Translations under genes and position numbers: made by a program
Notes under the pieces: model-generated
What the model was told of the DNA's origin: nothing
Database searches by the model: none
Seen by the model: the letters and a program-made list of their open reading frames with translations, nothing else
Assembly (NCBI GenBank): GCA_947502145.1
Contig: CANMYO010000008.1
Location: 1-47,224, forward strand
Source of the DNA: an uncultured Paracoccaceae bacterium
GTDB taxonomy: Bacteria > Pseudomonadota > Alphaproteobacteria > Rhodobacterales > Rhodobacteraceae
Direction: 5' to 3'
DNA: 47,224 bases
In this document: positions 32,209 through 47,224 of the stretch, piece after piece
How positions within the stretch are numbered: position 1 is the stretch's first letter
Layout: each line of letters opens with the position of its first letter

Positions 32209-32400
32209 TCAAAGGACCGTTCGAAAACGCAATGAGAACCAAACAAACTTCTTATGACCCGTGCCCAAACATGCATCTCGTAGTCGTCCATTGACACTTT
32301 CCACAAAGGCTTCTGCCTTGGCTTTCCCGGTGCAATATAACCTATCCTTGCACTCGGCCTGACAAGATACGTCGGACCTACGCTTGGGCGCTTTTTCCGT
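32209..32400 (-). pseudogene. Frameshifted IS3-type transposase fragment
   Basis: On the minus strand one frame reads YIAPGKPRQK and an overlapping frame reads AFVESVNGRLRDACLG. Together these match the IS3-family integrase segment (IAPGKP, then AFxESFNGRLRDECL) that holds the catalytic glutamate. A frameshift separates them and no start or full domain remains, so this is debris. A GGGCCTAGGCCC palindrome lies at 32191-32202, at its downstream edge. It fills the 295-base gap between the NTF2-like gene and the DeoR gene. Confidence 0.6.
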
Positions 32401-32460
32401 ACACAGTCCGGCCAACCGGAACCAGGAGTGGAAAATCTGGCTAGTTTCAGATGCCGTACG

Positions 32461-33234: not shown

Positions 33235-33303
33235 TTCCTACCTCGAGTTGAATAACCACATGCCCAAACTGCGGTCTCTTTTGTGGGTTTCAGCCTCCTG
33301 TTT

Positions 33304-33317
33304 GCCCGATTTCGGGC
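33304..33317. promoter_or_regulatory. Palindromic operator candidate in DeoR / ABC divergent gap
   Basis: GCCCGA-TT-TCGGGC lies in the 365-base gap between the DeoR gene and the binding-protein gene. The gap holds no gene. It also has a direct repeat TATATGGT at 33401-33408 and 33461-33468. The GCCCGA arm equals the start of the shared 19-base element, so this may be another site for the same regulator. Confidence 0.4.
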
Positions 33318-33475
33318 AGTATTGGCCAGTAAAGTTTTAGATTCTGCCCCAGCCCTCAGTAGTAAGTAACGCGTCGCACGTCAGATTTTCCCGTAATTTC
33401 TATATGGTTACAAGATTTCAAGACTGTGGCGAAAAAGCAGTTGATCGGTTAGAATGTTTGTATATGGTCATTAAA

Positions 33476-33494
33476 ATGCCCGACTTTGGTCACT
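33476..33494 (+). promoter_or_regulatory. Shared 19-base element upstream of ribose-type ABC operon
   Basis: ATGCCCGACTTTGGTCACT lies 105 bases before the ATG at 33600. It differs from the element at 24227-24245 at one position, and the distance to the start codon is almost the same (109 there). Conservation between non-homologous neighbours suggests a common operator rather than shared descent. Confidence 0.5.
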
Positions 33495-33599
33495 ATAGGC
33501 GAATCAGACCGAAGGGGCATGAGGGTGGAGAATGCGTTCATTCAAATGGTCGGTGATCCGCTTGCTATAGAACCAAAATGTTCAACAGGAGATCTCTAA

Positions 33600-34631
33600 A
33601 TGTCCCAATATACAAACCAAAAGACACGGCCGACATTCTCTGTCGTCGTTGCAACAATCGCTGTTCTGTCAGTTGCAGTACCGGCAGCAGCAGAAGACAT
33701 CGCCAGTATTACCATGGAAGAAGTCGCGGCACCGGCATCTGCCGCTTGTGACGGCGGCAAGACTTACCAAATCGCCTACAGTCATTCGGTTTCCGAAGCG
33801 GCAATTGTGCGGCAGGTGCGCCGTTTTGCCGACGAGCGCGCGGCAGAGCTCGGCTGCGTGGAAGTACTTCATGACAACACACAGGCGAACAACCTCGAAA
33901 GCCAGTTGAACGCCGTGAACAGCTGGATCACCCTCGGCGTTGACGCCATCGTCGTAACGCCGATTGATCCGACCGCACTTGCGCCTCTGCAAAGCCAGGC
34001 ACAAGAAGCTGGCATCAAGTGGCTCACTTATCTAGGTGAAATGGACGGTTCTGACGGCTTTGTTGGCTTCAATCACAGCCAGTCCGGCCAGCTTGTCGCC
34101 AATGCAGCCGTTGCTTGGGTTGAAGAAAACAATGTTGAAAATCCTGAGGCTCTCGTGACCACGCTGACTGGCCTCCCGCTGCTCTCGCCGCGCTGGACGG
34201 AAGTCGAGCGCATCTTTGAAGAGAACGGTATCACAATCGTTGCTACCCAGGATTCAGCGGATGAGGCCAGCGGCCTTCAAATCGCAGAAACCGTTATCAG
34301 CCAATACCCTGGTCTCGACATCATGATCGGCCTGAACGACAACTCAGCAGTGGGCATGGCACGTGCCGCGAAAGTCGGCGGTTTGAATGAAGATGAACTC
34401 TTCATTGCTGGTCAGGACGGCGACGTCGGTGGCCTCCAAGCTGTAAACGAGGGCGGTGCCTATCGCGGTTCAGCGGCCATTCTCATCAACACGCTCGGTG
34501 CAAACATCGTCAATCAGGCGCTCAATGCGATCAACGGAAACGGGCCGACTTCGGCGTACACACCGACCGTATGGGCATCGAAAGATGATCAAGAGCAGTT
34601 GGATGCCCTGATCTCTAACTACGACGAATAA
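33600..34631 (+). CDS. ABC transporter substrate-binding protein, ribose/galactose (Peripla_BP_4) type
   Basis: A 343-residue periplasmic protein with a Sec-type signal peptide ending near AVPAAAED and the RbsB-like fold: QIAYSHSVSEAAIVRQVRRF, AIVVTPIDPTALAP and DIMIGLNDNSAVGMARAAK. It begins a three-gene sugar-type importer. Members of this family also bind non-sugar polyols and amine compounds. The operon continues into an amidase and amino-alcohol-type kinases, so the cargo may be an amide or glycoside of an amino alcohol. AGGAG lies about 7 bases before the start. Confidence 0.88.
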   Translation: MSQYTNQKTRPTFSVVVATIAVLSVAVPAAAEDIASITMEEVAAPASAACDGGKTYQIAYSHSVSEAAIVRQVRRFADERAAELGCVEVLHDNTQANNLESQLNAVNSWITLGVDAIVVTPIDPTALAPLQSQAQEAGIKWLTYLGEMDGSDGFVGFNHSQSGQLVANAAVAWVEENNVENPEALVTTLTGLPLLSPRWTEVERIFEENGITIVATQDSADEASGLQIAETVISQYPGLDIMIGLNDNSAVGMARAAKVGGLNEDELFIAGQDGDVGGLQAVNEGGAYRGSAAILINTLGANIVNQALNAINGNGPTSAYTPTVWASKDDQEQLDALISNYDE

Positions 34632-34638
34632 GTCGTAG
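34619..34638 (+). promoter_or_regulatory. Hairpin spanning the binding-protein stop codon
   Basis: CTACGAC (34619-34625) pairs with GTCGTAG (34632-34638) around a GAATAA loop that contains the stop codon. No T-run follows. It lies between the binding-protein and ATPase genes, the same position as hairpins in the other two importer operons of this window. Confidence 0.5.
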
Positions 34639-34650
34639 ACGAGGGGAAAG

Positions 34651-36171
34651 ATGATGTTGAATACTTTGGTTGCCGTCGCTGATCTGCGCAAATCCTACGG
34701 AAGCGTCGAAGTTCTCAAAGGTTTGGATTTGGAGTTCAAAGCAGGCGAAATCCATGCCTTCCTTGGTGCAAACGGCGCGGGAAAGTCGACGTTCCTTGGA
34801 TGTTTGAGTGGCGCAGTGACCCCTTCCTCCGGGGAGATCACGCTCGACGGACAGGCGTTCGACGCTCTCAGACCGCGTCAGGCACTCGATCATGGTGTCG
34901 GCATCATCTACCAACATTTTCAGGTTTTCGAAGGCCTGAGCGTGGCCGAGAATATCTTTCTCGGCCGCGAACTCAAAAAGTTCGGCTGTGTCGATAAGTC
35001 AGCGCAAATTGCTGAAGCACGGACGATCCTGCAAAGACTTAGTGTCTCGATCGACCCGCGCACGATGCTTGATGATCTCAGTACGGGCGAGAGGAAGATC
35101 ATTGAGATCGCGCGTGCACTCAACGTGCATCCAAAGCTCTTGATACTAGACGAACCAACAGCGGCGCTCGGCGAAAAGGAAATGGCGGCGCTGCATGATG
35201 TTGTACGTCAGCTGGCGCACAGTGAGGGCCTTGGAATCGTCTACGTCACTCACCTTCTGGACGAAATTGATGAAATCGCAGACGTGGTCACGGTGCTGCG
35301 AAATGGAAGTGTCATCTGGACGAAACAGAAAGAAGACACAAACCCGACCGAACTTGCCGAAGCCATTGCGCCGTCCTCATCGGCAATGAAACTCTCAGCA
35401 CCAAGTATACGCAAAAATGGTCCTGCTAGCATTGAGCTGGAAGACTACTGTTCGCCGTTCACAGGTCCGATCAATCTCTCTGTCCGTCCCGGTGAGGCCA
35501 TTGGGATTTATGGACTACTGGGTTCCGGCCGCACCGACCTGCTGGAAAGCCTTTTTGGAGCGCGGGCACACACTGGCGGGTCCCTCAAGCTCGGTGGTCG
35601 ACCGACGCAGATCAAGAATCCTCTGGCAGCCATGGACAAAGGCATTTCCCTTGTCGCCAGCGACAGAACCGAACAGAGCTTATTTGGTACGTTGTCTGCA
35701 ACGGACAACCTGCTGATGCCGCACTACGGCAGAAGCATCCTTCCATCACTGATCCGCAAACCAAAACGAGAAAGAGAACTATTCTCCGATTTGGCAAGCC
35801 GTTTGTCAGTCCATCCCCCCAATCCCGCTCTGCTTGCAAGCCACTTCAGCGGCGGTAACGCACAGAAGATCGTGCTGGGTCGCTGGCTTCTCAATCAAGA
35901 CGCCGATAACCAGATCATCTTGCTCGATGAGCCAACCCAAGGTGTCGATATTGGCGCGCGCAATCAACTTTATGAAACGTTGAGGCAAGCGTTGAACCAA
36001 GGCGCATGCGTCCTCTTCGCGACCTCGGATCCAACGGAAATTCTCACCCTCGCAGATCGCACCCTCGTCTTAGGTTACGGACGCCAGGTCGCCCTGATCG
36101 ATAGCCCAAAGAACGAGCATGAGCTTGTTGAGCTCGCTCACAGAACATCCTCCGCCATCCACGCGGCTTAA
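34651..36171 (+). CDS. ABC transporter ATPase with two ABC domains, RbsA/MglA type
   Basis: A 506-residue duplicated ATPase. The first domain has Walker A GANGAGKST, signature LSTGERKIIEIARAL and Walker B LLILDEPTAALG. The second has the degenerate P-loop GLLGSGRTDLLES usual in RbsA, signature FSGGNAQKIVLGRWL and Walker B IILLDEPTQGVD. It energises the ribose-type importer. Two adjacent ATGs (34651, 34654) follow GAGGGG; the second is better spaced. The permease gene starts 2 bases after the stop. Confidence 0.92.
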   Translation: MMLNTLVAVADLRKSYGSVEVLKGLDLEFKAGEIHAFLGANGAGKSTFLGCLSGAVTPSSGEITLDGQAFDALRPRQALDHGVGIIYQHFQVFEGLSVAENIFLGRELKKFGCVDKSAQIAEARTILQRLSVSIDPRTMLDDLSTGERKIIEIARALNVHPKLLILDEPTAALGEKEMAALHDVVRQLAHSEGLGIVYVTHLLDEIDEIADVVTVLRNGSVIWTKQKEDTNPTELAEAIAPSSSAMKLSAPSIRKNGPASIELEDYCSPFTGPINLSVRPGEAIGIYGLLGSGRTDLLESLFGARAHTGGSLKLGGRPTQIKNPLAAMDKGISLVASDRTEQSLFGTLSATDNLLMPHYGRSILPSLIRKPKRERELFSDLASRLSVHPPNPALLASHFSGGNAQKIVLGRWLLNQDADNQIILLDEPTQGVDIGARNQLYETLRQALNQGACVLFATSDPTEILTLADRTLVLGYGRQVALIDSPKNEHELVELAHRTSSAIHAA

Positions 36172-36173
36172 CG

Positions 36174-37199
36174 ATGTCCGACTATGCCCATTCACTGCGG
36201 AGCTTTTCGGCATCGCGCAAACCAGACAACGAAACAGGTACCACCGTGAACGAACAACGAAAAAAAATTGACTGGGTGGAATTCTCAATATCTGCCGCCC
36301 TGCCACTGGCCGTTGTGCTGATCGCACTCTTCTTCTACGCCAACTCGCCAGTGTTTTTCAGCGCTCGCAATTGGATCAATATCTCGGTCCAGATTGCAGC
36401 TGCGATGACAATCACAATTCCCGCAGCCATGCTTTTGATGTCAGGCCGTGTGGATCTTAGCGTCGGCTCGCTAATGGCACTTTGCGGAGTTGTAGCCGGT
36501 CTTTCCTTTGAAACCATGGGAGTTCCTGGTGCGGTCGCATTCACAATTTGCATCGGGATTTTCGCGGGTCTCTTCAACGGTGTATTGATCGCAGTTCTGG
36601 GGATGGATGCGATCATCGTGACACTCGGATCGTTCACATTGTTTCGCGGCATCGCGCAATGGTTCGCTCCCAACCCAGTATTTGGTTTTCCAGAGGCCTT
36701 TCTTATTCTTGGATATGGGCGATGGTTTGGTCTCCCCTATCTGACCTGGATCATGATCGGGGTCTTGGTTACAGGACTTCTAGTGATGAGATTTCTGCCT
36801 ATTGGCAGGCGCATCATTGCAATCGGGATCAATGATCGTGCTGCGTTCCTTGTCGGTGTGAGGGTCAAGTGGACGGTGTTGCTGCTCTACATTGCCGTAG
36901 GCGTTGCTTGCGCTCTTGCCGGTCTGATGACCATCGCACGGATCAATTCCGCACCCTCTGCATCTCTCGGCGTCGACTTTGAAATTCTCGTTCTGACCGC
37001 AATTCTGCTAGGCGGCGTGCCCTTTAAAGGTGGGAAGGGCTCGCTCCTGCGCGTCGCTCTGGCCGTCGTTCTGTTGGGCATGCTCGACAACGGACTCGTT
37101 TTGATGAATGTCCAGACAGAGGCCGCATTAATGATCAAAGGCGGTGTCCTGATCTTTGCTGCAGCGCTTGATCTTATCCGCACCCGTCGCGCGGGTTGA
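36174..37199 (+). CDS. ABC transporter permease, RbsC type
   Basis: A 341-residue inner-membrane permease of the ribose/xylose branched family with about 8-10 hydrophobic helices. Landmarks are MLLMSGRVDLSVGSLMALCG and ILLGGVPFKGGKGS. It completes the importer with the two upstream genes. The annotated ATG has no obvious ribosome-binding site and probably depends on coupling to the ATPase stop 2 bases away; the first 35 residues are hydrophilic, so a later start is possible. Confidence 0.9.
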   Translation: MSDYAHSLRSFSASRKPDNETGTTVNEQRKKIDWVEFSISAALPLAVVLIALFFYANSPVFFSARNWINISVQIAAAMTITIPAAMLLMSGRVDLSVGSLMALCGVVAGLSFETMGVPGAVAFTICIGIFAGLFNGVLIAVLGMDAIIVTLGSFTLFRGIAQWFAPNPVFGFPEAFLILGYGRWFGLPYLTWIMIGVLVTGLLVMRFLPIGRRIIAIGINDRAAFLVGVRVKWTVLLLYIAVGVACALAGLMTIARINSAPSASLGVDFEILVLTAILLGGVPFKGGKGSLLRVALAVVLLGMLDNGLVLMNVQTEAALMIKGGVLIFAAALDLIRTRRAG

Positions 37200-37212
37200 A
37201 GGAGAGATCGCC

Positions 37213-38604
37213 ATGCACATTCAAGAATTTGCCCACCTTTCATTGCGCGACCTGCAATCCTTATTGTCCAAGCGGGAAGTGAGTCCTGTCGAGGTAACTG
37301 ATCTTGCACTAGACCAAATCGAGGAGACCAACGGCACGATCAACGCCCTCTTTGGCGTGCGAGCAAATGCTGCTCGCTCCGAAGCAAAGGCCGCCGAAAA
37401 ACGCTATCTGGACGGCACGCCGCATAGCGATTTCGACGGTATCCCGGTCACGATCAAAGACAGCGTGAACGCCGAAGATATGAAATGGTATCATGGTTCC
37501 GCTATCCATGGCGACGGCGTTCTGGCGACGAAAGATTCACCACCAGTGAAACGCTTGAAGCAAGCCGGTACAATTATCCTCGGCAAAGGGGCTATGCCTG
37601 ACTTCGGTTTGAGCGCATCTGGAGTGAGCGGATCCCACGGCATTGTACGAAACCCTTGGGGATTGGCTTGGAACACAGGTGGGTCAAGTGCCGGAGGTGG
37701 TGCGTCTATAGCTGCTGGAATTGGGATGATGTCTGTTGGTTCGGACATCGCCGGATCTGTACGTCTGCCAGCAGCACATTGCGGACTTGCAGCTTTAAAG
37801 CCCACTCAGGGCGTCATCCCGCATGCTCCGGCATCAACTGTCAGATCTGCAGGTCCAATCACACGATACGCAGCCGATCTCGACGCTTGGGCGACGCTGC
37901 TCTCTGGTCCAGACGATGCGGATCGCTATTCGATGCCCTACGCTGCGGCAAATGAAATCGATCAAGTTATCGTCGGTGTGACCGCTGACTTTGGGTTCGG
38001 CCCTCACGTAGAGTTCGTTGTTCGCAAATGCGTCGAAAGAGCCAAGCGCGCTTTGGGTTCGATCGTTGGCAAGGTTGCCGATGTCGAGAAACGCGCAGAC
38101 TTTGACCTTTATTTGCCGATCGACAACTCTCTTAAGCTGCGAGGTTGGCAGGAATACCTTGGTGCAAACGAAGAGCTGCGTTCCAAGACCCCTGATCAAT
38201 TGTTCAAATGGTTCAAGGAAGTTGAGCACTGGTCGTCGACAGACATTCGTGAAATCGACGCTGGCATTGAACGCGGTGTAGCGTTTTGCGTTGACCTCCT
38301 AAGTGACGTTGACATCTTGCTGACCCCAGTGATGCCTGTGGTCAACTTTCCAGCAGAAGATCGCGGGGTGGACCCGGCGATGCCCTTGCGTCACACCACC
38401 TTCACTGCACCATTCAATCAAGCAGGCAATCCGGCCGTCTCGATCTGCGGTGGTTTTGATGAGCGCGGACTCCCAATTGGCATACAGCTCGTTGGAAGAC
38501 GGCTCGATGACGCGCGCGTCATCGCATTAGCTGCTATGCTTGAAAAAGAATTGAACATTTTTGGCAATGATGGACAGAAGTGGCCAACGAACCCGATTGC
38601 CTAG
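37213..38604 (+). CDS. Amidase-signature-family hydrolase
   Basis: A 463-residue amidase with the Ser-cisSer-Lys machinery: lysine in VTIKDSVNAEDM, the glycine/serine loop NTGGSSAGGGASIAAG and the nucleophile in GSDIAGSVRLPAA. Family members hydrolyse amides, carbamates or allophanates. The start at 37213 has AAGGAG 8 bases upstream; an ATG 57 bases earlier lies inside the permease gene and is unlikely. Placed between an importer and two amino-alcohol-type kinases, it could release an amino alcohol from an N-acyl or gamma-glutamyl conjugate. The substrate is not determined. Confidence 0.87.
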   Translation: MHIQEFAHLSLRDLQSLLSKREVSPVEVTDLALDQIEETNGTINALFGVRANAARSEAKAAEKRYLDGTPHSDFDGIPVTIKDSVNAEDMKWYHGSAIHGDGVLATKDSPPVKRLKQAGTIILGKGAMPDFGLSASGVSGSHGIVRNPWGLAWNTGGSSAGGGASIAAGIGMMSVGSDIAGSVRLPAAHCGLAALKPTQGVIPHAPASTVRSAGPITRYAADLDAWATLLSGPDDADRYSMPYAAANEIDQVIVGVTADFGFGPHVEFVVRKCVERAKRALGSIVGKVADVEKRADFDLYLPIDNSLKLRGWQEYLGANEELRSKTPDQLFKWFKEVEHWSSTDIREIDAGIERGVAFCVDLLSDVDILLTPVMPVVNFPAEDRGVDPAMPLRHTTFTAPFNQAGNPAVSICGGFDERGLPIGIQLVGRRLDDARVIALAAMLEKELNIFGNDGQKWPTNPIA

Positions 38605-38622
38605 AAGACTTGGAGAACAGCC

Positions 38623-39573
38623 ATGACAGATGGAGAAAAGGAAGAACGCGAGCTGGTCTCACGGCACCGGGCCGAAGAGGCTCTGGGTGCAGTGCCAACG
38701 TCGTTTGAAAGCCCTCTGACCGTTCTTGCCTCCCCTGCCTGGCGAGGTGTGGAGGGAGATGTCTGGCACGCCCAAAATGGCGATAAGTCGGTCATCCTCA
38801 AGCACTACCACGCTGACACATCGTTCTACGTCGATACTGGGAGTGCAATTCAGGCTGCTGTTGAAGCTGCAAAACTGGGTGTTGGGCCGACGGTCATCAA
38901 GCACTGGGTTTCAGATCACATAATCGCCTTTGAGGATCTTGCCTCGCCCTGGCGAGCGGGCGGACTTCACGACGCCGCCTCCGAGAAAACGCGAGCGGCA
39001 GTCATCGCTGCGAAGCAGACTTTTCAGAACGGCGCCAAGCTCGACAAGACCTCCGATATCTTTTCAGAGATTGAAGCCCTGTGTGGAATTGTCGACGACC
39101 AGAGAATTCGAACACATAACGACTTTCAGGTGTTCAGGGATTTCATGTCAGACGCCCAGGACAAAATTGGGGCGTTGGGCAAAGACGTCAAGCCATGTCA
39201 CCGGGATGGTAATACAGCCAATCTCATGATCAGAGAAAATCACGAGGTACAACTCATTGATTTCGATCTCGCAGCCAATTGCGACCCTTTTGAGGACATT
39301 GGATGTTACATGGCTGAGTTCTTTGAATGTGAAGCTGATGCGCGTCCAGGTTTTGAAGAATGGCATGGCAGTTTCGATGAAGGCCTGTTCCAGCGGGCAG
39401 TAATCTATGGTTTGGCTGATGACATGCGGTGGGGTCTCATTGGTTCAATCCTTGCTGCAAACTCCCCGCGCACGAGCCTAGAGTTCGGCAAGTACGCTTC
39501 CTGGCGCTTCTTGCGGCTGGAGATGCAGGTAAAGCGGTCGCTAGCCAACAACCGCATTCGTTTGGCAGCGTAG
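38623..39573 (+). CDS. Choline/ethanolamine-kinase-like APH-fold kinase (first of tandem pair)
   Basis: A 316-residue APH-fold kinase with nucleotide-lobe lysine in SVILKHYHAD, catalytic loop PCHRDGNTANLM and metal-binding segment LIDFDLAANCDPFEDIGCYM, close in pattern to choline and ethanolamine kinases. A GGAG site lies upstream. It follows the amidase by 18 bases and precedes a second kinase by 13. The likely job is ATP-dependent phosphorylation of an amino alcohol (ethanolamine or 1-amino-2-propanol) to the ester that the class III PLP phospho-lyase gene at 41563 would cleave. The histidine-arginine-aspartate loop is intact, so it looks active. Confidence 0.83.
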   Translation: MTDGEKEERELVSRHRAEEALGAVPTSFESPLTVLASPAWRGVEGDVWHAQNGDKSVILKHYHADTSFYVDTGSAIQAAVEAAKLGVGPTVIKHWVSDHIIAFEDLASPWRAGGLHDAASEKTRAAVIAAKQTFQNGAKLDKTSDIFSEIEALCGIVDDQRIRTHNDFQVFRDFMSDAQDKIGALGKDVKPCHRDGNTANLMIRENHEVQLIDFDLAANCDPFEDIGCYMAEFFECEADARPGFEEWHGSFDEGLFQRAVIYGLADDMRWGLIGSILAANSPRTSLEFGKYASWRFLRLEMQVKRSLANNRIRLAA

Positions 39574-39586
39574 AGGGACTTCTAAG

Positions 39587-40510
39587 ATGAGCGATAAGAT
39601 ACAACAGCAACTAGACGACGCCATCCGCGCCGTTCCTGGCTGGTCCCCTGAATCTGTGGAGGTCAAACCCCTCGTAGGCGGCCTGATGAACTCAAACTGG
39701 CTTGCGATCCACCAGGGCAAGACCCATTTCATGAAGGTCTATGGCATCGGCTCAGAAGCTTTCGTAAACCGAGATCAGTCAATAGCGGCGTCACGGCAGG
39801 CACATGAATTGGGAATATCACCAGAAGTGCTTCACTATGATCCCAAATCGGGTCTGGAAGTTGTGGAGTTTCTGACGGAGCACCGGGCTTCGACGAATGC
39901 CGACTTTGCGCGCAAAGACTTTCTTGAAGCCGCTATGGATCTATATTCTAAGTTCCACGGTGGTTCACCTCTCGCGACGACCAAAGATATCTTTGAGATG
40001 ACCGACGAGCATTTCGAACAAGGTAACGAGCTTGGTGCGATGCGGCCGACAGACTTCCCTTGGCTCAAAAAGCAGTACCAAAAGGCTAAAGACGCCTTTT
40101 TTGCGTCTGGCCTAGATCTGGTCCCATGCCACAGCGACCCTATGCCGGGAAACTTCATGGTGAAGCTAGAGAATGATCAGATCACCGATATGCAACTCAT
40201 CGACTTTGAGTTCGCTTCAAATAATGAGCGAGCCTATGAGATCGCTGTTTTTCTGGCTGAGGTCTTTGTCGACGAGAAGACCTCGCTTGAACTAATCGAG
40301 CGATACTATGGTGAAGTCCGCCCAGAAATTGTTGCTCGAATTTGGGTGGCGCGTGCTGTTGCAGACATGAAATGGGGGTCTTGGGCAGTTCAGCAGCGCC
40401 AGCTTTCCGACTGGGACTTCGACTATCAGAAGTATGGCATCTGGAAGTATGCACGTGCGCGCATGCTATTTGATGATCCTCGGTGGGACGATTGGCTAAG
40501 GACGATTTAG
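39587..40510 (+). CDS. Choline/ethanolamine-kinase-like APH-fold kinase (second of tandem pair)
   Basis: A 307-residue kinase with the choline-kinase-like N-terminus PLVGGLMNSNWLAI, catalytic loop PCHSDPMPGNFMV and metal-binding segment LIDFEFASNNERAYEIAVFL. It is only distantly related to the gene before it, so this is not a fresh duplication. The two could form a heteromer or serve different substrates or stereoisomers of the same amino alcohol. The usual residue between His and Asp differs (HSD here, HRD in the first kinase). It ends the operon; a convergent DeoR gene ends 53 bases further on. Confidence 0.83.
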   Translation: MSDKIQQQLDDAIRAVPGWSPESVEVKPLVGGLMNSNWLAIHQGKTHFMKVYGIGSEAFVNRDQSIAASRQAHELGISPEVLHYDPKSGLEVVEFLTEHRASTNADFARKDFLEAAMDLYSKFHGGSPLATTKDIFEMTDEHFEQGNELGAMRPTDFPWLKKQYQKAKDAFFASGLDLVPCHSDPMPGNFMVKLENDQITDMQLIDFEFASNNERAYEIAVFLAEVFVDEKTSLELIERYYGEVRPEIVARIWVARAVADMKWGSWAVQQRQLSDWDFDYQKYGIWKYARARMLFDDPRWDDWLRTI

Positions 40511-40563: not shown

Positions 40564-41331
40564 CTACTGAACAGCGTTTGGTGTGAAGATTTCTGCTTCC
40601 GCTGTTTCGATTGCGGTTTTTAGAATTTCAGGCGGTTCGACTTCTGAAACTAAAGTGATGTTAGGCCCCCAGGCCGCGTATTCAATCAAGGCGGACTTTT
40701 CGAACTTACTACTGTCAGCCAAGATCAATGTCCGAGCCGCGCGCTCTGACATCATCTGGTAAATGCGACCGGCTGGAATCGTGGCATCACTTGGACCGGC
40801 AGCCGTTAGCCCGGAAGCACCAAGTATCGCTTTTGACCCTCGGAACCGCAGTAACGCTTCGATTGTTTCAGAGCCTTCGACCATCCCCTCGCTTCCATTG
40901 TATTCACCCGGGAGCATGTGCGTCTTAATGTTTGAGCTGCCCCCTAGCGCCAGAGCGACATTGAATGATGGCGTAATAACCGTGCAGGGCTCGTTCTTAA
41001 CTGCAAGCGCACGTGCAAAGTAGCGCGTCGTGATCCCTCCCCCAACCAATAACACCTCATTTGTCTCGAGCATGTCGACGGCCATTCGAGCGATTAGCTC
41101 ACGCTCAGCTACCTGAAGGTGCTCACGTTCACTTAGTGCAGGCTCCTTGGAGATAATTCTGACGGCCCCGCCATAAGTACGATTGATTAGCCCGCGCTCT
41201 GTGAGTTCGGAGAAGTCCCGCCGAATTGTCTCAGAAGAGACGTCGTACCGCGTTGCAAGTTCGTTTACGCGGAGCGCCGGTTCTCGCTCGAGGTCTCGGA
41301 CGATGGCCTCATGTCTATCGATTTTGTTCAT
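40564..41331 (-). CDS. DeoR-family transcriptional regulator
   Basis: A 255-residue DeoR protein with N-terminal helix-turn-helix (LRVNELATRYDVSSETIRRD, then LTERGLINRTYGGAV) and a DeoRC sensor domain (LLVGGGITTRYFARAL, AILGASGLTAAGPSD, LADSSKFEKSALIEY). It is divergent from the microcompartment operon (231-base gap) and is its likely repressor, probably released by a phosphorylated intermediate. It carries the same VGGGxTT sensor variant as the DeoR protein at 32.5-33.2 kb, which suggests related effectors. Confidence 0.88.
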   Translation of the reverse strand: MNKIDRHEAIVRDLEREPALRVNELATRYDVSSETIRRDFSELTERGLINRTYGGAVRIISKEPALSEREHLQVAERELIARMAVDMLETNEVLLVGGGITTRYFARALAVKNEPCTVITPSFNVALALGGSSNIKTHMLPGEYNGSEGMVEGSETIEALLRFRGSKAILGASGLTAAGPSDATIPAGRIYQMMSERAARTLILADSSKFEKSALIEYAAWGPNITLVSEVEPPEILKTAIETAEAEIFTPNAVQ

Positions 41332-41454
41332 TTGGCCTCCTCGTCAGAATTACTTTTAGCTTTACCAGCCTTGATGTTGCAAGTCCCACACCTGACTGCA
41401 GAGAATCAATGCCCTCTGTGAATCGCAACCAATCTGTGGATGCATCTTTGTGGA

Positions 41455-41522
41455 AAGTCGGGCTAAACATCAACAAAATATAGCCAAATTTAGGTGAAAT
41501 AGATTTCGCTTGTGCCCGACTT
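41455..41522. promoter_or_regulatory. Inverted GCCCGACTT pair in DeoR / microcompartment promoter gap
   Basis: AAGTCGGGC (41455-41463) and GCCCGACTT (41514-41522) are exact reverse complements 50 bases apart in the divergent gap. The 9-base word is the core of the 19-base element found before both ABC importer operons. They are candidate operators for one of the DeoR proteins. Confidence 0.5.
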
Positions 41523-41544
41523 ACAAATATGTTTGTTGTAAGTC
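41518..41544 (+). promoter_or_regulatory. Perfect 9-bp inverted repeat next to microcompartment operon start
   Basis: GACTTACAA (41518-41526), a 9-base spacer, and TTGTAAGTC (41536-41544) end 18 bases before the ATG at 41563. The left arm overlaps the GCCCGACTT word. It could be a repressor operator at the promoter or an mRNA hairpin near the ribosome-binding site. Confidence 0.55.
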
Positions 41545-41562
41545 AGTCAGAAAGGGAACGCC

Positions 41563-42840
41563 ATGTTCGATTACAGCGCTTTTTCATTTGCAGATAAGGA
41601 AGAGCTTTACGCGAAGGCGAAGAAGTTCTGGAATCCTGGCAAGGTAGACTTCTGGCGCGGTGAAGGTATCGATCTGGTGATCGATAGGCGCGAGGGTTAC
41701 TATCTCTATGATATCGAAGGCCGCCGGCTGATCGACCTGCACATCAATGGAGGAACCTTCAACTTCGGTCACAGCCATCCCGAGCTCGTCGAGACGCTAA
41801 AGCTGGCGCTCGACCATTTCGACATCGGCAACCACTGGTTCCCATCTGCAGCACGAACCGCATTCGCAGAAGAGTTCCTCAAGACAGCGCCGGGTATGGA
41901 CTACTGTGTCTTTGGCGCAGGTGGTGCGGAAGCCGTCGAGCTGGCCATCAAGAGCGCACGCTACGCCACCCAGAAGCGACGGATTGTCTCCATCATCAAA
42001 GGGTATCACGGCCACTCTGGTTTGTCGGTTGCAACAGGCGATGACCGGTTTAGTAAGATTTTCCTGGCCGATCGCCCCGAAGAATTTGCCCAAGTCCCCT
42101 ACAAAGACCTCGATGCGCTTGAAGCAGAGCTTAAGAAAGGCGACGTCGCAGCCTTCATCCTTGAAACGATCCCCGCAACATATGGCTTTCCAATGCCCAC
42201 GGCAGAGTATTTGCAAGGCTGTGCCTCGCTTTGCCGCAAATACGATGTCATGTACATCGCGGACGAGGTGCAAACCGGCCTGATGCGGACCGGGCATATG
42301 TGGGGCTGGCAGGCCTACGGCATTCAGCCAGACATTTTCGTCTCTGCAAAAGGCATTAGTGGCGGAATCTACCCGATCAGTGTTGCCTGCATGACGGACC
42401 GCTGTGCCGCTTGGCAAAAGGAAGACGGGGCCGCCCATATCACGACCGCCGGTGGCTCAGAGCTCGGCTGCGTCGTTGGACTGAAAGTCCTCGAAATGCT
42501 CCAGCGGCCCGAGATCGTCGCGAACGTTCATGCCGTGGCCCAGTTTTTTGCGGACGGTCTGGGCGAGATCCAAGCCCAAAACAGCGACATCTTTGGCGGC
42601 ATTCGCCAGAAGGGCGTCATTCTCGGCCTCGAATTTGAGCACCCGGAAGGTGCCGTATACGCGTCGAAGGCTCTTTATGAGCACGGCGTCTGGGCCATCT
42701 TTTCATCCCTCGACAAACGCGTTCTGCAATTCAAGCCAGGTGTCGTACTCGATGCTCCGCTTTGTCAGGAAATCCTGGATCGTTTCAGTGCTGCAATGCC
42801 GACGCTTCGCAAGAAGCTCGCATCTGCACCGAAACATTAA
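41563..42840 (+). CDS. Class III PLP enzyme, probable amino-alcohol-phosphate phospho-lyase of the microcompartment
   Basis: A 425-residue class III aminotransferase-fold protein with cofactor aspartate D234 (IADEVQTGLMRTG) and PLP lysine K263 (SAKGISGGIYP). This fold includes true transaminases and ethanolamine-phosphate or aminopropanol-phosphate phospho-lyases, which eliminate phosphate and ammonia to give acetaldehyde or propionaldehyde. The co-occurrence of two amino-alcohol-type kinases upstream and an acylating aldehyde dehydrogenase 15 bases downstream favours the lyase. No encapsulation helix is obvious at either end. It opens the microcompartment operon. Confidence 0.82.
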   Translation: MFDYSAFSFADKEELYAKAKKFWNPGKVDFWRGEGIDLVIDRREGYYLYDIEGRRLIDLHINGGTFNFGHSHPELVETLKLALDHFDIGNHWFPSAARTAFAEEFLKTAPGMDYCVFGAGGAEAVELAIKSARYATQKRRIVSIIKGYHGHSGLSVATGDDRFSKIFLADRPEEFAQVPYKDLDALEAELKKGDVAAFILETIPATYGFPMPTAEYLQGCASLCRKYDVMYIADEVQTGLMRTGHMWGWQAYGIQPDIFVSAKGISGGIYPISVACMTDRCAAWQKEDGAAHITTAGGSELGCVVGLKVLEMLQRPEIVANVHAVAQFFADGLGEIQAQNSDIFGGIRQKGVILGLEFEHPEGAVYASKALYEHGVWAIFSSLDKRVLQFKPGVVLDAPLCQEILDRFSAAMPTLRKKLASAPKH

Positions 42841-42855
42841 AGCGGAGGCCGCGTG

Positions 42856-44391
42856 ATGTCTGGAAGCGATACCACACCTAGAATGTTGACCCCTGATGTC
42901 GCGGCAGCGCGCGCAGGTCAGATGTTGAATACCGCTCGCTGGGCGGCAGACAGCTTTGCAAAAATGGACAACGAGACTGTTCGGATGGTGGTCAAGGCGA
43001 TGTCCGAAGCAGGTTTCGCCAAGGCCAAGGACTACGCAGAATGGGCCGTCCGCGAGACCGGCTACGGGCGGGTCGCGCACAAGATCATGAAGAACGAAGG
43101 CTGCTCACGCGGAATCTTCGAAAAGTATGGCGATCTTGACTTCGTCGCTCCGCGGATCAGCCATGAAGCCAAAACGGTCGAACTGGCCCGCCCCGCAGGC
43201 GTCGTCTTTGCACTTACACCCGTCACAAATCCCGTCGCCACCGTCTACTTCAAAGCTCTTCTCGCCGTGATGACGCGCAACGCGATTGTCATCTCCCCTC
43301 ATCCCGGCGCCAAGGAAGTCTGCGCGGATGCTGTCAGAACGCTTGCCGTCGCTGCTCAATCCGCAGGCGCGCCTGCGGGCCTGATCCAGGTGGTCGAAGA
43401 ACCGACGATCCCGTTGATCGATCATTTCATGACCAGTGACGACGTCGACTTGATTGTTGCGACAGGCGGTCCCGCAGTCGTGAAAGCGGCATACCGCTCC
43501 GGCAACCCCGCCATCGGCGTTGGGTCAGGCAATGCGCCTGTTCTGGTTGATGACACCTGTGATCTGCGCAAAGCGGCGAAGTACATCGTCGACTCCAAAG
43601 GCTTCGACAATTCTATTCTTTGCACGAACGAAAGTACCATCCTTGCGTTCGAGAGCGTGGCCGATCAACTGCTCCAGCAGCTAAAAAACGCTAGAGCACA
43701 TGTCTGTAAACCCCAAGAAGTCGAAGCCCTGCGGAAGCTACTTTTCACCGACAGTGGCTTCAACGTCGACATGATCGGAAAGGACGCCAGCCTGATCGCG
43801 GAAGCTGCGGGTTTCCGCGCACCAGGTGCGGAAATTCTGGTTGCCCCCGTTGAGCTCATTCAGCCTGAGGAAACTCTCGTTCGTGAAAAGCTCTGCCCCG
43901 TCCTCGCATTTGGACGTGTTGACGACATCAACCAAGGTATTGCCGCAGCGCGATCTGTCATGCGCAAATCTGGAAAGGGCCACTCTGCCGTCATTCACTC
44001 GACCGACGAGAGACGCATCCTTTCTTACGCAAACGCCGTCCCTGCATTGCGTATCGTTGTCAACGTAGGCTGTTCGCTAGGTGCTTCTGGTTTTGAAACG
44101 CATCTCGGTCCAAGCATGACTATTGGCACAGGCTTTGCAGGCGGATCATCCGTAGGCGCTAACCTAAAGCCCGAAAACTTCATTAACATGGCCCGGATTG
44201 CCTACAATAAATCGGACGCCGAGCCGTTCGGGGTCTTTGAAGGTCTTGCTCGCGATACCGTGGCAGCACCCCTACCCGCCATTCACACCTTCCCTTCCAC
44301 TGCGCCTTCAGCGCCGCAAGCCGGTGGCGAGATGCGCGCCGAGTTGCGCCAGCTCATCCAAGAAGAGCTCAAAGCAATCCTAACGGCCTGA
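42856..44391 (+). CDS. CoA-acylating aldehyde dehydrogenase of microcompartment type, with C-terminal encapsulation helix
   Basis: A 511-residue enzyme of the EutE/PduP-like group that oxidises acetaldehyde or propionaldehyde with NAD and CoA to acyl-CoA. The catalytic cysteine is C256 (DNSILCTNES), and GVGSGNAPVLVDDTCD and VGCSLGASGFETHLGPSMT are typical. After residue 470 comes a Pro/Ala/Ser-rich linker (PAIHTFPSTAPSAPQAGG), then an amphipathic helix MRAELRQLIQEELKAILTA, the form of a shell-targeting peptide. I chose the ATG at 42856 over a GTG three bases earlier because GGAGG is better spaced. It is the signature enzyme of the locus. Confidence 0.9.
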   Translation: MSGSDTTPRMLTPDVAAARAGQMLNTARWAADSFAKMDNETVRMVVKAMSEAGFAKAKDYAEWAVRETGYGRVAHKIMKNEGCSRGIFEKYGDLDFVAPRISHEAKTVELARPAGVVFALTPVTNPVATVYFKALLAVMTRNAIVISPHPGAKEVCADAVRTLAVAAQSAGAPAGLIQVVEEPTIPLIDHFMTSDDVDLIVATGGPAVVKAAYRSGNPAIGVGSGNAPVLVDDTCDLRKAAKYIVDSKGFDNSILCTNESTILAFESVADQLLQQLKNARAHVCKPQEVEALRKLLFTDSGFNVDMIGKDASLIAEAAGFRAPGAEILVAPVELIQPEETLVREKLCPVLAFGRVDDINQGIAAARSVMRKSGKGHSAVIHSTDERRILSYANAVPALRIVVNVGCSLGASGFETHLGPSMTIGTGFAGGSSVGANLKPENFINMARIAYNKSDAEPFGVFEGLARDTVAAPLPAIHTFPSTAPSAPQAGGEMRAELRQLIQEELKAILTA

Positions 44392-44398
44392 GGTAACA

Positions 44399-45010
44399 AT
44401 GCCCGATCTACGATCCTTTATCTTTATCGATCAACTGCAGCCACAAACCTTGGCGTATGTCGCAACATGGATGCGCGGCAGCCTGCCGAGGTCGCGGATG
44501 GCTGCACAGATCATCGAAATTGCGCCCGGTCTCGACATCGAGGCCCTCACTGACACCGCCCTTAAGAGCGCTGATGTCAAAGCCGGACTTCTCGTCGTTG
44601 AGCGCCAATTCGGCACGTTGGAATTTCACTCACGGAATACGGCCGAAGTGCAAGCAGCAGCTGACGCGGTGCTCCAAGAGCTCGGCGTCAGCCGGGAAGA
44701 CGTCGCGCCACCCAAAATCTTGGCATCCAAAATCGTGACCCGCGTCGATCATCAACACGCATTTCTGATGAACCGTAATCGCATGGGGTCGATGATTCTC
44801 GGTGGAGACAGTCTCTATCTTCTCGAATGTCAGTCGGCGTCTTACGCCATGCTAGCGTGTAACGAAGCCGAGAAAGAAGCGAACATCAAAGTCATCGATT
44901 ACCGCATGATCGGCCCAAATGGTCGTCTCTATCTTGCTGGCGATGAGGCCGAAGTTCGTAACGCCCGTAATGCAGCAGAAGCAGCCCTTCGCACTGCAGG
45001 GGCACATTGA
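44399..45010 (+). CDS. BMC-T shell protein (tandem BMC domains), RMM type
   Basis: A 203-residue protein with two fused BMC domains (about residues 35-100 and 115-200), forming pseudohexameric trimers that tile the facets of a microcompartment shell. It shows AAQIIEIAPGLDIEALTDTA, GLLVVERQFGTLEFH, then DHQHAFLMNRNRMGSMIL and AMLACNEAEKEANIKVIDYR. From memory it is strikingly close to a BMC-T protein of the Mycobacterium smegmatis RMM locus. It starts 5 bases after the dehydrogenase stop; its own stop overlaps the next ATG (TGATG). Confidence 0.92.
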   Translation: MPDLRSFIFIDQLQPQTLAYVATWMRGSLPRSRMAAQIIEIAPGLDIEALTDTALKSADVKAGLLVVERQFGTLEFHSRNTAEVQAAADAVLQELGVSREDVAPPKILASKIVTRVDHQHAFLMNRNRMGSMILGGDSLYLLECQSASYAMLACNEAEKEANIKVIDYRMIGPNGRLYLAGDEAEVRNARNAAEAALRTAGAH

Positions 45011-45528
45011 TGAGCGACCTGCGCCATATGATCCGCGAGATCCTCACCGATGAGATCCAAGCACTTCGGGCTTCTATGGGCAGCGCTTTACAGGTGCCAG
45101 TTGTCCGTGAGCCAGTTGCTGTCTCAAGTGACTACGAACTAAATGCGTTCGCGCGTCATATGATTTCGATTGCAGATAATCCTGCACAGCGCGCCGAGTT
45201 TTTGACCGGGCGTTTGCAATTCACAATGAACGCCGGTCGCTCTGTTGCTTCGCAATACATCCCGCCAACGGTTGCACCGGCAACAGCACCGCCGATGGTC
45301 ACCGCACCTGCACCTTCCTCAACGCCTCGTCCGATGCCATCGCTCCAACCGGCGGGGGCAACAGGTGTGCGGCAAACCTTCGATAAAGGAATTCTGACAG
45401 AAAAGGACGTCGAGAGGCTCCCTCAGGAAACCCGCGCACTCACATTGGGACAAACCGTCCGTCTTACACCGCTGGCGAATGACGAACTGCGGAGACGGAA
45501 TATCAAGATCGAAAGGAAAGCCGCATGA
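45010..45528 (+). CDS. Microcompartment-associated protein with N-terminal encapsulation-like helix, function unknown
   Basis: A 172-residue protein in three parts. Residues 2-20, SDLRHMIREILTDEIQALRA, form an amphipathic helix much like the C-terminal helix of the aldehyde dehydrogenase. The middle (about 90-118) is Pro/Ala/Thr-rich and probably disordered. The C-terminus has LTEKDVERL followed by LTLGQTVRLTPLANDELRRR and NIKIERK, a small motif (T-P-x-A-x-(D/R)-E, then I-x-I) also seen in other microcompartment proteins such as EutT/EutQ-type. It could be a cargo adaptor or scaffold. A gene of this kind lies at the same place in RMM loci as I recall. The ATG overlaps the previous stop; the end overlaps the next start by four bases. 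Confidence 0.78.
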   Translation: MSDLRHMIREILTDEIQALRASMGSALQVPVVREPVAVSSDYELNAFARHMISIADNPAQRAEFLTGRLQFTMNAGRSVASQYIPPTVAPATAPPMVTAPAPSSTPRPMPSLQPAGATGVRQTFDKGILTEKDVERLPQETRALTLGQTVRLTPLANDELRRRNIKIERKAA

Positions 45529-45761
45529 TCCAAGGCAAAGTCACAGGACAAGTCTGGTCATCCAGGCACCTCGAAACTCTTCCGAAAGGCGCCCTCCTCG
45601 AAGTCGAGGTGGCAGGCAACAAGATTGTTGCATTTGATCCGCTCGGTTGCGCACCCGGAGAGAACGTTTTGATCACCACAGGATCGGTCGCGGCCGGTCA
45701 CTTCACGGAGTTCAAAGCACCAATAGATGCACTCATCATCGGGTCCATCGACGACACGTAA
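45525..45761 (+). CDS. BMC-P shell vertex protein (EutN/CcmL family)
   Basis: A 78-residue EutN/CcmL-family protein: [20 protein letters not shown], then [20 protein letters not shown] and a C-terminal [13 protein letters not shown]. Such proteins form pentamers that cap the vertices of icosahedral shells. The usual DxVGAGxGE turn reads DPLGCAPGE here, so a cysteine and proline replace glycines. It is the only vertex protein in the window. Its start overlaps the preceding stop as ATGA. Confidence 0.9.
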
Positions 45762-45798
45762 CCGGGCGACGCCCAACTACCCACTAAGGAGAACCAAA

Positions 45799-46083
45799 AT
45801 GGCTAACCAAGCTATCGGTATGATCGAAACGAAGGGCTATGTCGCTGCGCTTACAGCTGCAGACGCCATGGTGAAGGCGGCAAACGTGACCATCGTTGCC
45901 AAGAACGAAGTTGGCGGTGGTCTCGTCTCCGTTGTCGTCAAAGGCGATGTTGGCGCGGTCAAGAGCGCAACAGAAGCGGGTGCCGAGGCAGCCAATTCCA
46001 TCGGCGAGGTCGTTTCCATGCATGTGATTGCCCGTCCTCACGAAGACCTTGGCAAGCACTTTGAAGCTGCGAAACTGAAGTAA
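45799..46083 (+). CDS. BMC-H shell protein (PduA/EutM family)
   Basis: A 94-residue single-domain BMC protein that forms hexameric facet tiles: [20 protein letters not shown], then the pore loop [20 protein letters not shown]. The pore has three glycines where PduA has GSG, so the channel lacks the pore serine. The C-terminus [14 protein letters not shown] is short. The start at 45799 has AAGGAG 7 bases upstream; an earlier in-frame ATG at 45727 lies inside the vertex-protein gene and is rejected. Good translation signals fit its being the most abundant shell part. Confidence 0.95.
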
Positions 46084-46111
46084 GTAACGACGCCCGAGAA
46101 AGGCCGACACC

Positions 46112-46738
46112 ATGACTGAACTGCGAGTGTATTTGCCGATCGAAGATCTGCAGCCTCAATTTGCGGCCTATCTTGCGACACCACTGCGCGCGCGGGGCTA
46201 CCCTCCCTTCGAAGGTCAGCACAGTCTGATCATTGAGGTGGCCCCGGCGCTCTCGATTCACCGGATCGTCGATCTCGCCCTGAAAGAGTCGCCCGATCTG
46301 GAACCTGGGATCTTGTTCACTGAACGAAACTTTGGCCTTCTTGAGCTTCATGCCGACAACATGGATGAACTTGAGAATGCCGGACAAGCCATCCTGAATG
46401 GTCTCGGCGCAAAGGCCGAGGACCAGTTGGCACCAAAGGTCCTCTTCCATGACATTATCGAAGACCTGTCGGATCAACATGCCATCATCCTCAACCGGTC
46501 GCGCGATGCCTCGATCCTGGTCCCGGGCGTCTCTCTGCTCATCTACGAGATGGCCCCTGCCCTTTTTGCATGCGTTGCGGCCAACGAGGCAGAACGTGCA
46601 GCACCAAATGCTGTGATCAACGACGTTCAAATGATGGGTGCGTCTGGTCGGATATTCATGTCGGGGAGCACTGAAGACATGAAGAACGCACGTGACGCTA
46701 TCACGCAAACGCTCGAGGCGGTCAAAGGACGAAGTTAG
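46112..46738 (+). CDS. Second BMC-T shell protein (tandem BMC domains)
   Basis: A 208-residue tandem-BMC protein: TELRVYLPIEDLQPQFAAYL, then HSLIIEVAPALSIHRIVDLA, GILFTERNFGLLELH, and the second domain DQHAIILNRSRDASILVPG with ALFACVAANEAERAAPNAVI. It is paralogous to the BMC-T protein at 44.4-45.0 kb (same layout, LQPQ and DQHA segments) but clearly diverged, so the shell has two kinds of trimer tile. It ends the operon, with a strong terminator 50 bases downstream. Confidence 0.92.
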   Translation: MTELRVYLPIEDLQPQFAAYLATPLRARGYPPFEGQHSLIIEVAPALSIHRIVDLALKESPDLEPGILFTERNFGLLELHADNMDELENAGQAILNGLGAKAEDQLAPKVLFHDIIEDLSDQHAIILNRSRDASILVPGVSLLIYEMAPALFACVAANEAERAAPNAVINDVQMMGASGRIFMSGSTEDMKNARDAITQTLEAVKGRS

Positions 46739-46787
46739 AAAGATCGCTGTGAAATTTCTCCCTGGCCCTCCTCCCGGGTCGACTATG

Positions 46788-46839
46788 GTTGATGGCCAAT
46801 GACGAATTACCTCTTCCCGTTGGTCATCAACTTTTTTTT
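46788..46839 (+). terminator. Rho-independent terminator closing the microcompartment operon
   Basis: GTTGATGGCCAA (46788-46799) pairs with TTGGTCATCAAC (46820-46831) with one G-U wobble, followed at once by eight T (46832-46839). This is a textbook intrinsic terminator 50 bases after the last shell gene. Confidence 0.9.
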
Positions 46840-46874: not shown

Positions 46875-47224
46875 TTAGAAGGGCGCAGATTGTACTTTTT
46901 GGGTTTCGCGAAACCGGCAAAGACAAATCTCGATGAGAACCAAGTCAAAGAGGTCAAATGTTTGCAGACGAGTGCCAGCATAAGATGGCGAGTATTGGTG
47001 CAGATTGAACTGCTGAAGCGACGGAACTCGTGAGTTTGACTGCAGGCCCACGCTTCCCTGAGCTCGAGAGTATTCATTTAGGTTTTTGAAATTACATGCG
47101 CCGAATTCTGCGCCTCGATTTTTATCTTCGACTGCACCGGATTTCGGCTCGTCCTTGTGATTGTCGAGGATCGATAGCGCGCGTTCCGTGTCGTTGAATG
47201 GGATGACGATCACATCGTCCAGAG
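46875..47224 (-). CDS. Unrecognised open frame running off the right edge
   Basis: After the terminator no recognised gene remains. A minus-strand frame is open from the window edge to a stop near 46875 (about 115 residues), starting LDDVIVIPFNDTERALSILD. Those first 20-odd residues look protein-like; the rest (RAQGSVGLQSNSRVPSLQQF and onwards) is low-quality and could be out of frame. It may be the end of a gene lying outside the window, a decayed gene, or chance. No function is proposed. Confidence 0.25.
   Translation of the reverse strand, partial: LDDVIVIPFNDTERALSILDNHKDEPKSGAVEDKNRGAEFGACNFKNLNEYSRAQGSVGLQSNSRVPSLQQFNLHQYSPSYAGTRLQTFDLFDLVLIEICLCRFRETQKVQSAPF

Follow-up and report, generated by a model that had tools for sequence, protein, structure and literature searches.

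Which type of bacterial microcompartment (BMC) is encoded near the end of a 47,224-base contig of an uncultured Paracoccaceae bacterium, and on which substrate would it act? The contig (C8), analyzed here in its entirety as the window, belongs to a host genome of 4.03 Mb in 22 contigs. A reading made from the sequence alone had flagged 41563-46839 as a complete shell with a dedicated amino-alcohol pathway of the RMM type, known from mycobacteria and rhodococci. Our analysis demonstrates that the locus is a genuine RMM type in an alphaproteobacterial form, that it is composed of two parts and that it is larger than the flagged interval. We consider it likely that these two modules, lying on the same strand, form an RMM1-type locus for aminoacetone and 1-amino-2-propanol.

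The core operon and its divergent regulator are composed of the following features.

40564-41331, minus strand: DeoR2, regulator divergent from the core operon (PF00455)
41563-42840, plus strand: AT3, class III pyridoxal phosphate (PLP) enzyme, likely an amino-alcohol-phosphate phospho-lyase (PF00202, Aminotran_3, E 1.9e-75)
42853-44391, plus strand: acylating aldehyde dehydrogenase (AldDH) with GTG start and C-terminal encapsulation-type helix (PF00171, Aldedh, E 5.9e-27)
44399-45010, plus strand: BMC-T of the double-stacking type, MSM0275-like (PF00936, E 1.4e-10)
45007-45528, plus strand: HYP, conserved unnamed RMM protein of 173 residues with TTG start; N-terminal helix, linker and C-terminal domain (11-sequence alignment, AlphaFold)
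45525-45761, plus strand: BMC-P, MSM0273-like (PF03319)
45799-46083, plus strand: BMC-H, MSM0272-like (PF00936)
46112-46738, plus strand: BMC-T of the double-stacking type, MSM0271-like (CcmP-like in NCBIfam, without Pfam match)
46787-46839, plus strand: intrinsic terminator of the core operon (15-pair stem and U8, z -3.45)

The sequence-only reading had described the genes at 41563-46738 as tightly coupled, with one helix-tagged product and a strong terminator, and each point is borne out. The intergenic gaps are 12, 7, -4, -4, 37 and 28 bases, AlphaFold places a helix at residues 2-25 of HYP, and none of 200 shuffles was as stable as the terminator stem. A simple terminator scan with a loop limit of 8 did not list this hairpin; over the window, the scan gave 8 terminator-like sites against 6.9 expected and 2 promoter-like sites against 3.2 expected. 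The family E-values of the core genes led us to reject a chance cluster of open reading frames (ORFs), and a decayed locus was rejected because the catalytic motifs are intact, with the PLP lysine at position 263 of AT3 and the cysteine at position 257 of AldDH. In NCBIfam, the top matches of AldDH are acylating types, all below their own cut-offs, and both BMC-T proteins are CcmP-like (209.6 bits against a cut-off of 340 for 44399-45010, and 176.2 bits for 46112-46738).

The type of the shell was assigned by searching its proteins against solved chains. The BMC-T at 44399 matches the MSM0275 chain 5l39 with 267.7 bits (next 166.3), the BMC-T at 46112 the MSM0271 chain 5suh with 293.4 bits (next 138.9), and BMC-P the MSM0273 chain 5l37 with 79.3 bits (next 22.8). 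BMC-H matches the MSM0272 chain 5l38 with 124.5 bits, the next single-domain chain giving 106.1; a tandem-fusion construct scores 162.9 bits over two stretches. Thus, for 4/4 shell proteins the corresponding Mycobacterium smegmatis RMM chain is the best natural solved match, by wide margins for three. BMC-H by itself does not mark the type well, as the at least 80 loci recovered by a BMC-H search include other BMC types.

An RMM locus combines AldDH and a class III aminotransferase-like enzyme, both present in the core, with a phosphotransferase and a short-chain dehydrogenase (SDR) (PMC4207490). The latter two, the aminopropanol kinase and the SDR, were found at 28328-30133. Therefore, the claim of a complete shell with a dedicated pathway holds for the shell, whereas two of the pathway enzymes lie outside the flagged interval. 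Its second half lies about 11 kb (11.4 kb) upstream of the core on the same strand, as follows.

23105-24136, minus strand: AraC/QhpR-type regulator, divergent from the importer (PF12625, PF12833; NCBIfam QhpR 278.1 bits, cut-off 250)
24354-28316, plus strand: potD-potA-potB-potC, polyamine-type ABC importer (PF00005 in potA, PF00528 in potC)
28328-29107, plus strand: SDR with TTG start, likely an (S)-1-amino-2-propanol/aminoacetone dehydrogenase (solved relatives 6ci8, 6ci9)
29129-30133, plus strand: APH0, APH-family kinase, likely an (S)-1-amino-2-propanol kinase (solved relative 6ef6)

The best solved relatives of the SDR are 6ci8 (E 9e-92) and 6ci9 (E 2.9e-91). That of APH0, whose catalytic motifs are intact, is 6ef6 (E 1.8e-79, the next at E 6.8e-14). 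We take these chains to be RMM enzymes of (S)-1-amino-2-propanol, and together with the RMM shell set they support the amino-alcohol breakdown proposed earlier; that the organelle degrades small amino alcohols is very probable. Within the importer, potA is PotA-like in NCBIfam but below the cut-off, and potD and potB, which have no Pfam match at E<=1e-10, are named by position.

To place the locus, 17 other non-redundant alphaproteobacterial RMM loci were compared by tblastn (L numbers denote loci; L056/L106 and L071/L172 are counted once each); percent identities come from local BLAST of automatically trimmed ORFs or from tblastn. potDABC-SDR-APH0 and AT3-AldDH-T-HYP-P-H-T stand on one stretch, each at least in part, in 12 of the 17, and the other five are cut by contig or stretch ends and give no contrary order. 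Three of the 12 loci taken as complete have a truncated gene: L003 and L071 lose part of potD at the stretch edge, and L110 loses part of AT3 at the contig edge. Two arrangements recur. Order A runs DeoR (opposite strand), AT3, AldDH, T, HYP, P, H, T, potD, potA, potB, potC, SDR and kinase (L023, L078, L104, L108 and L114, with L110 and L113 each truncated on one side and L039 a fragment). Order B starts with potDABC, SDR and kinase and continues with AT3 and the rest (L003, L056, L071, L174-L177 and L179; L173 of this group retains the core only, cut at a contig end). The window has AraC and potDABC-SDR-kinase, then 11.4 kb, then DeoR and AT3 to BMC-T, which corresponds to order B interrupted by an intercalated segment.

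Homologs of the Pot importer, 48-78% identical, occupy the same block in those other alphaproteobacterial RMM loci whose stretch extends that far. The SDR is 54-56% identical to that of four actinobacterial RMM loci, 58-62% to that of L174-L177 and L179, and 70-76% to that of the remaining alphaproteobacterial loci reaching the region. Homologs of the AraC regulator, 41-43% identical, stand between SDR and kinase in five RMM loci, L174-L177 and L179. AT3 is 69-71% identical to order-A members and 56-59% to those of order B and the actinobacterial RMM loci. A concatenated-core tree (15 of 23 rows, without L039, L054, L103, L111, L015, L079, L140 and L004) groups the window with order A at support 100, and in the import-module tree the nodes placing the window have support of 34-45. 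DeoR2 is 42-46% identical to the DeoR adjoining AT3 in six order-A loci; since DeoR1, a regulator in the intercalated segment, is nearly as similar to the same six (39-41%), the link of DeoR2 with the core rests on its position as well.

The window shares four shell proteins, kinase, SDR, class III PLP enzyme, tagged acylating AldDH and HYP with the RMM1/AUM loci of M. smegmatis and Mycolicibacterium. The gene-order comparison agrees, as the core order is identical in the RMM1 loci L043, L047, L054, L057 and L059; in four actinobacterial RMM loci kinase and SDR follow this core, and the fifth is cut within the kinase. Unlike the actinobacterial form, in which an amino-acid permease and a GntR regulator are reported (PMC4207490, PMC6620236), the window carries a Pot-type ABC importer with AraC and DeoR regulators, like other alphaproteobacterial loci, and its two modules are separated by 11 kb in which another operon lies. 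No amino acid permease or GntR was found among the Pfam-profiled window ORFs (all but 9698-10243); we treat permease and GntR as peripheral to RMM rather than defining.

In its RMM group and alphaproteobacterial host, the locus resembles RMM2 of Paracoccus yeei TT13 (PMC8156839). RMM2 bears a diol dehydratase, whereas none was found among the Pfam-profiled window ORFs; PF02286 had no match in the genome either, though the positive control of that search was also silent. The subtype is most likely RMM1. RMM1 and RMM2 fall in one BMC-Tdp color group in Sutter 2021 (PMC8217296).

An RMM in Alphaproteobacteria has precedents: RMM2 was reported earlier in P. yeei TT13 (PMC8156839) and the cluster in Proteobacteria (PMC6620236), and 17 further loci are found here. 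Axen 2014 restricted RMM to Actinobacteria (PMC4207490), and in Ravcheev 2019 the aut cluster spans Actinobacteria, Firmicutes and Proteobacteria, with 11 gut genomes carrying it (PMC6620236). A search at title and abstract level, with importer terms and supplementary tables outside it, found no description of the alphaproteobacterial layout, so no claim of a first listing is made. The locus belongs to an established BMC type, of which it represents an alphaproteobacterial form.

We consider the following route likely for the two modules. In module 1 (23105-30133), the Pot-type importer would bring a small amine into the cell, with the AraC-type regulator alongside. The SDR would reduce aminoacetone to (S)-1-amino-2-propanol and APH0 would phosphorylate the amino alcohol, both in the cytosol. 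In module 2 (40564-46839), associated with the DeoR regulator, AT3 would eliminate phosphate and ammonia within the shell to give propionaldehyde, and the CoA-acylating AldDH, which would enter the shell by means of its C-terminal helix, would produce propionyl-CoA; HYP may act as a helix-tagged adaptor, and BMC-H, BMC-P and two double-stacking BMC-T proteins would build the shell. Conversion of aminoacetone to propionyl-CoA has been proposed for RMM (PMC8156839). The route is laid over the gene content, homology, gene order, tail motif and terminator observed in the window; we infer its substrates, the lyase rather than transaminase activity, the placement of enzymes in and out of the shell, and the adaptor role.

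The same organelle might instead process ethanolamine, with APH0 phosphorylating it after import, AT3 giving acetaldehyde and AldDH giving acetyl-CoA, as a B12-free stand-in for ethanolamine ammonia-lyase. Like EUT2 metabolosomes, the window has an acetylating-type AldDH with a C-terminal tag (type I of PMC8217296). The solved relatives of AldDH are acylating dehydrogenases and the closest are acetylating acetaldehyde dehydrogenases, and class III enzymes include an ethanolamine-phosphate phospho-lyase (PMC8154272). Unlike EUT2, the shell is RMM-type, and EutB (PF06751) had no match in the window's genome, with a positive control in E. coli; this absence suits the 1-amino-2-propanol route and an ethanolamine stand-in alike. 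The SDR, however, would have no role on ethanolamine, and it is present in 12/12 complete alphaproteobacterial loci and 4/5 actinobacterial loci, the fifth being cut before the SDR. Kinase and SDR also find their best matches in chains that we take to be 1-amino-2-propanol enzymes. We regard the ethanolamine route as unlikely.

The RMM of Rhodococcus jostii RHA1 pRHL2 (NC_008270, L103) bears on the same point. It shares the order AldDH-T-HYP-P-H-T with the window, at 44-72% identity for shell and AldDH and 27% for HYP. Unlike the window, it has an annotated ethanolamine permease nearby, which would suit the ethanolamine route, and its BMC-T, HYP, BMC-P and BMC-H are present twice under the same protein accessions. 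Its PLP enzyme (L103 15735-17342) is of another, PRK06148-like subfamily, 24% identical to AT3, and shares its terminal block with the tail of its AldDH.

A second alternative concerns the chemistry of AT3, which as a transaminase would make methylglyoxal from aminoacetone or lactaldehyde from 1-amino-2-propanol for AldDH to oxidize, while the kinase acts elsewhere. This is how Axen 2014 (PMC4207490) and Ravcheev 2019 (PMC6620236) read the pathway, and the top scores of AT3 are to true aminotransferases. The position of the kinase argues otherwise, since it lies in the block of the PLP enzyme in the 12 complete alphaproteobacterial loci and in 5 actinobacterial ones, and adjoins the PLP enzyme in L015 and L079, two Firmicutes loci whose shells are of other kinds; the lyase route explains this kinase and the transaminase route does not. 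A transaminase route therefore seems very improbable. The two Firmicutes loci carry AT3 and APH0 homologs of 41-52% identity, with an SDR of 54% in L015, beside BMC-H genes, and their AldDH is without the RMM tail motif: similar enzymes, different shell.

The placement of enzymes was addressed through C-terminal ends. The tail motif [LI]R.[LIM][IVL].EEL is present in 24/28 AldDH rows (19/22 plus 5/6) and in 0/20,000 shuffled AldDH ends. The rows without it are L004, L015 and L079, which belong to other shells, and L179, which is one letter off. By contrast with AldDH, it occurs in 1/27 AT rows (R. jostii), in 0/18 kinase rows (17 with a full end; L054 cut short) and in 0/18 SDR rows (15 orthologs with a full end; L113 cut short; L140 and L004 not orthologs). 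A helical-moment ranking was undiscriminating, as the ends of AT3 and SDR also score high, and we therefore relied on conservation of the motif.

HYP starts with a helix similar to the AldDH tail, and its N-terminal motif is present in 12/16 rows. It is missing from L003 (undetermined letters), from L047 and L057 (start trimmed) and from L103. Its AlphaFold model, built from 11 sequences (pLDDT 78.4, pTM 0.34), gives a helix confident to about residue 20, a small domain at 32-73, a low-confidence linker at about 80-117 and a C-terminal domain at 121-170. No described relative was found by fold or family, with no Foldseek match in the PDB at E<=0.001 (best E 0.17) and no match in Pfam or NCBIfam. 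We propose HYP as a conserved adaptor candidate.

Several observations weigh against the proposed 1-amino-2-propanol route. The identity of 6ci8, 6ci9 and 6ef6 as M. smegmatis (S)-1-amino-2-propanol enzymes is our assumption, the names in the search table being generic. AT3 scores 105.8 bits against 6tor, an ethanolamine-phosphate phospho-lyase, compared with 171.4 for 4ppm and about 144-157 for ornithine aminotransferases; since AT3 is not specially close to 6tor, its lyase activity rests on linkage to the kinase. The R. jostii RMM has a kinase of 39% identity and no SDR match in 25 kb, hence the SDR is not universal in RMM; this too would suit the ethanolamine route. Kinase, SDR and AT were judged by the C-terminal tail motif alone.

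AldDH also departs from the rest of the core, at 44-53% identity to the RMM AldDHs compared, whereas six order-A members are 68-89% identical among themselves. In its tree (22 rows, without L039, L103, L111, L015, L079, L140 and L004), the window lies outside orders A and B on an end branch of 0.94, in disagreement with the AT3 tree. A forced grouping with order A was rejected in an approximately unbiased (AU) test (p 0.011), a result tempered by the long branch and by the choice of that group once the AT3 tree had been seen. It is possible that the AldDH has been replaced or is fast-evolving; given this divergence, its aldehyde substrate could differ. Finally, an AT3 ortholog was found in none of 5/5 congeners (best-scoring matches 31-32%), so the locus is accessory; it is also rare, and its use remains a prediction.

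This rarity is evident across the family and class. BMC-P is present in 16/295 family genomes, 7 of which, the window's own included, carry the RMM core; those without a seen core were judged on 3.2-kb stretches, except G215. BMCT1 (E<=1e-30) is present in 11/385 class genomes, 8 with AT3 and 3 with a distant shell only. Over 28.2-47.2 kb, the congeners give only two matches, of 46-50 bases, and G+C is 0.56-0.57 at 42001-46000 (core operon) against 0.50-0.55 across most of the contig. Distant RMM-like shells in L111 (G215:C31), L180, L181 and L182 (BMC-T1 53-57%, BMC-H 70-72%) come with AldDHs of 38-42% and with no AT3, SDR or RMM kinase in the stretch compared. That of G215 sits with genes for an AMP-ligase, a thiolase-like protein and a TRAP transporter. 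These four are possibly another BMC type with an RMM-like shell.

The segment separating the two modules (30137-40510) contains the following features.

30137-30817, plus strand: class I glutamine amidotransferase, accessory, 3 bases past APH0 (PF00117, E 8.6e-14)
32461-33234, minus strand: DeoR1, regulator of the intercalated operon, outside the RMM core and divergent from 33600 (PF00455/PF08220)
33600-37199, plus strand: sugar (ribose)-type ABC importer with binding protein, ATPase and permease (PF13407, PF00005, PF02653)
37213-38604, plus strand: amidase-signature hydrolase (PF01425, E 2.3e-70)
38623-39573, plus strand: APH1, APH-family kinase (PF01636, E 5.7e-07)
39587-40510, plus strand: APH2, choline/ethanolamine-kinase-like APH (PF01633, E 1.2e-19; best solved relative 3dxq, E 6e-26)

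The first part, 30137-32165, holds the amidotransferase, BioY and carbonic-anhydrase-family genes. An amidotransferase homolog was found in none of the first set of RMM loci compared, with one 24% match at the L176 edge. The carbonic-anhydrase-family protein, between BioY and DeoR1 at 31686-32165, is of the metal-independent kind (NF047901, 194.8 bits, cut-off 350). The remainder, 32461-40510, is a self-contained operon, whose permease is AraH/RbsC-like in NCBIfam but below the cut-offs.

The sequence-only reading had linked the core to the ribose-type importer, the amidase and two DeoR proteins. All are present, but importer, amidase and DeoR1 fall outside the conserved locus. Homologs of the binding protein, amidase and APH2 at >=35% were found in 0/17 other alphaproteobacterial RMM loci, over stretches of 4.7-31 kb rather than whole genomes; L179, with an amidase match of 24%, and L175, with an ATPase piece of 34%, come nearest. 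Within these stretches, we rejected the ribose-type importer as the RMM importer. APH1 and APH2 were likewise rejected as the RMM kinase, because APH0 is the ortholog and they match it in short and weak fashion (E 0.031 and 1.1).

The association of these genes was followed in other genomes. APH2 orthologs (E<=1e-40) occur in 8/295 family genomes, the window's included, and APH1 adjoins APH2 in 8/8 other loci from seven other genomes (27-55% identity). An amidase match at E<=1e-60 is found in 2/8 of the APH2-bearing genomes, the window's and G215. In the latter, a class III PLP enzyme of its own comes after the amidase-APH1-APH2 trio (62, 55 and 66% identity). This enzyme is 47% identical to the tail-bearing R. 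jostii RMM enzyme, and its nearest counterpart in the window's genome reaches 32%. L143 has an M20 peptidase gene beside the APH1-APH2 pair, and an AstE/AspA-type protein is on the opposite strand of L141; with importers and hydrolases in both, the pair perhaps belongs to an import-hydrolyze-phosphorylate module.

Two readings give this operon a part in the microcompartment. In the first, it feeds the core and Pot-SDR-APH0 is an unrelated neighbor. Its adjacency here and the class III PLP enzyme beside the G215 trio would fit, but Pot-SDR-APH0 is contiguous with the core in 12/17 other loci, where the binding protein, amidase and APH2 are found in 0/17; we hold this to be exceedingly improbable. 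In the second, the operon is an additional feeder, so that two separately regulated kinase arms would serve one organelle with two substrates. An amide would be imported, the amidase would free an amino alcohol, APH1 and APH2 would phosphorylate it, and AT3 and AldDH would finish within the shell. The comparison with G215 is suggestive only; as its PLP enzyme has no close copy in the window's genome, the neighboring AT3 becomes the candidate for the second arm. No amidase-kinase arm appears in the other RMM loci compared (0/17), and a dual input is doubtful.

Two observations concern the rest of the contig. The segment 13001-22732 is a separate catabolic operon resembling aminoadipate/lysine breakdown, with a class I aminotransferase, an aldehyde dehydrogenase, an FAD oxidase, a 2-oxoadipate dioxygenase/decarboxylase (HGLS; PF07063, E 2.7e-155), an FAD-linked oxidase and a glutamate dehydrogenase family protein. 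The final 77 bases (47148-47224) are identical to the end of contig C10 (28403-28479), where the copy lies inside a class III aminotransferase-like reading frame; the assembly ends at the repeat.

Mallette and Kimber reportedly noted that the RMM enzymes need several non-overlapping cofactors, so that either the shell lets all of these cofactors pass or most of the enzymes lie outside it. The alphaproteobacterial loci bear on this question, as importer, SDR and kinase form one module and PLP enzyme, AldDH, HYP and shell form another. The two modules occur in two relative orders, and in the window they are 11 kb apart with different regulators. This hints at a partition, with kinase and SDR outside the shell and lyase and AldDH inside. 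The module layout and the pattern of the tail motif make such a partition testable, and HYP is named as a conserved adaptor candidate.

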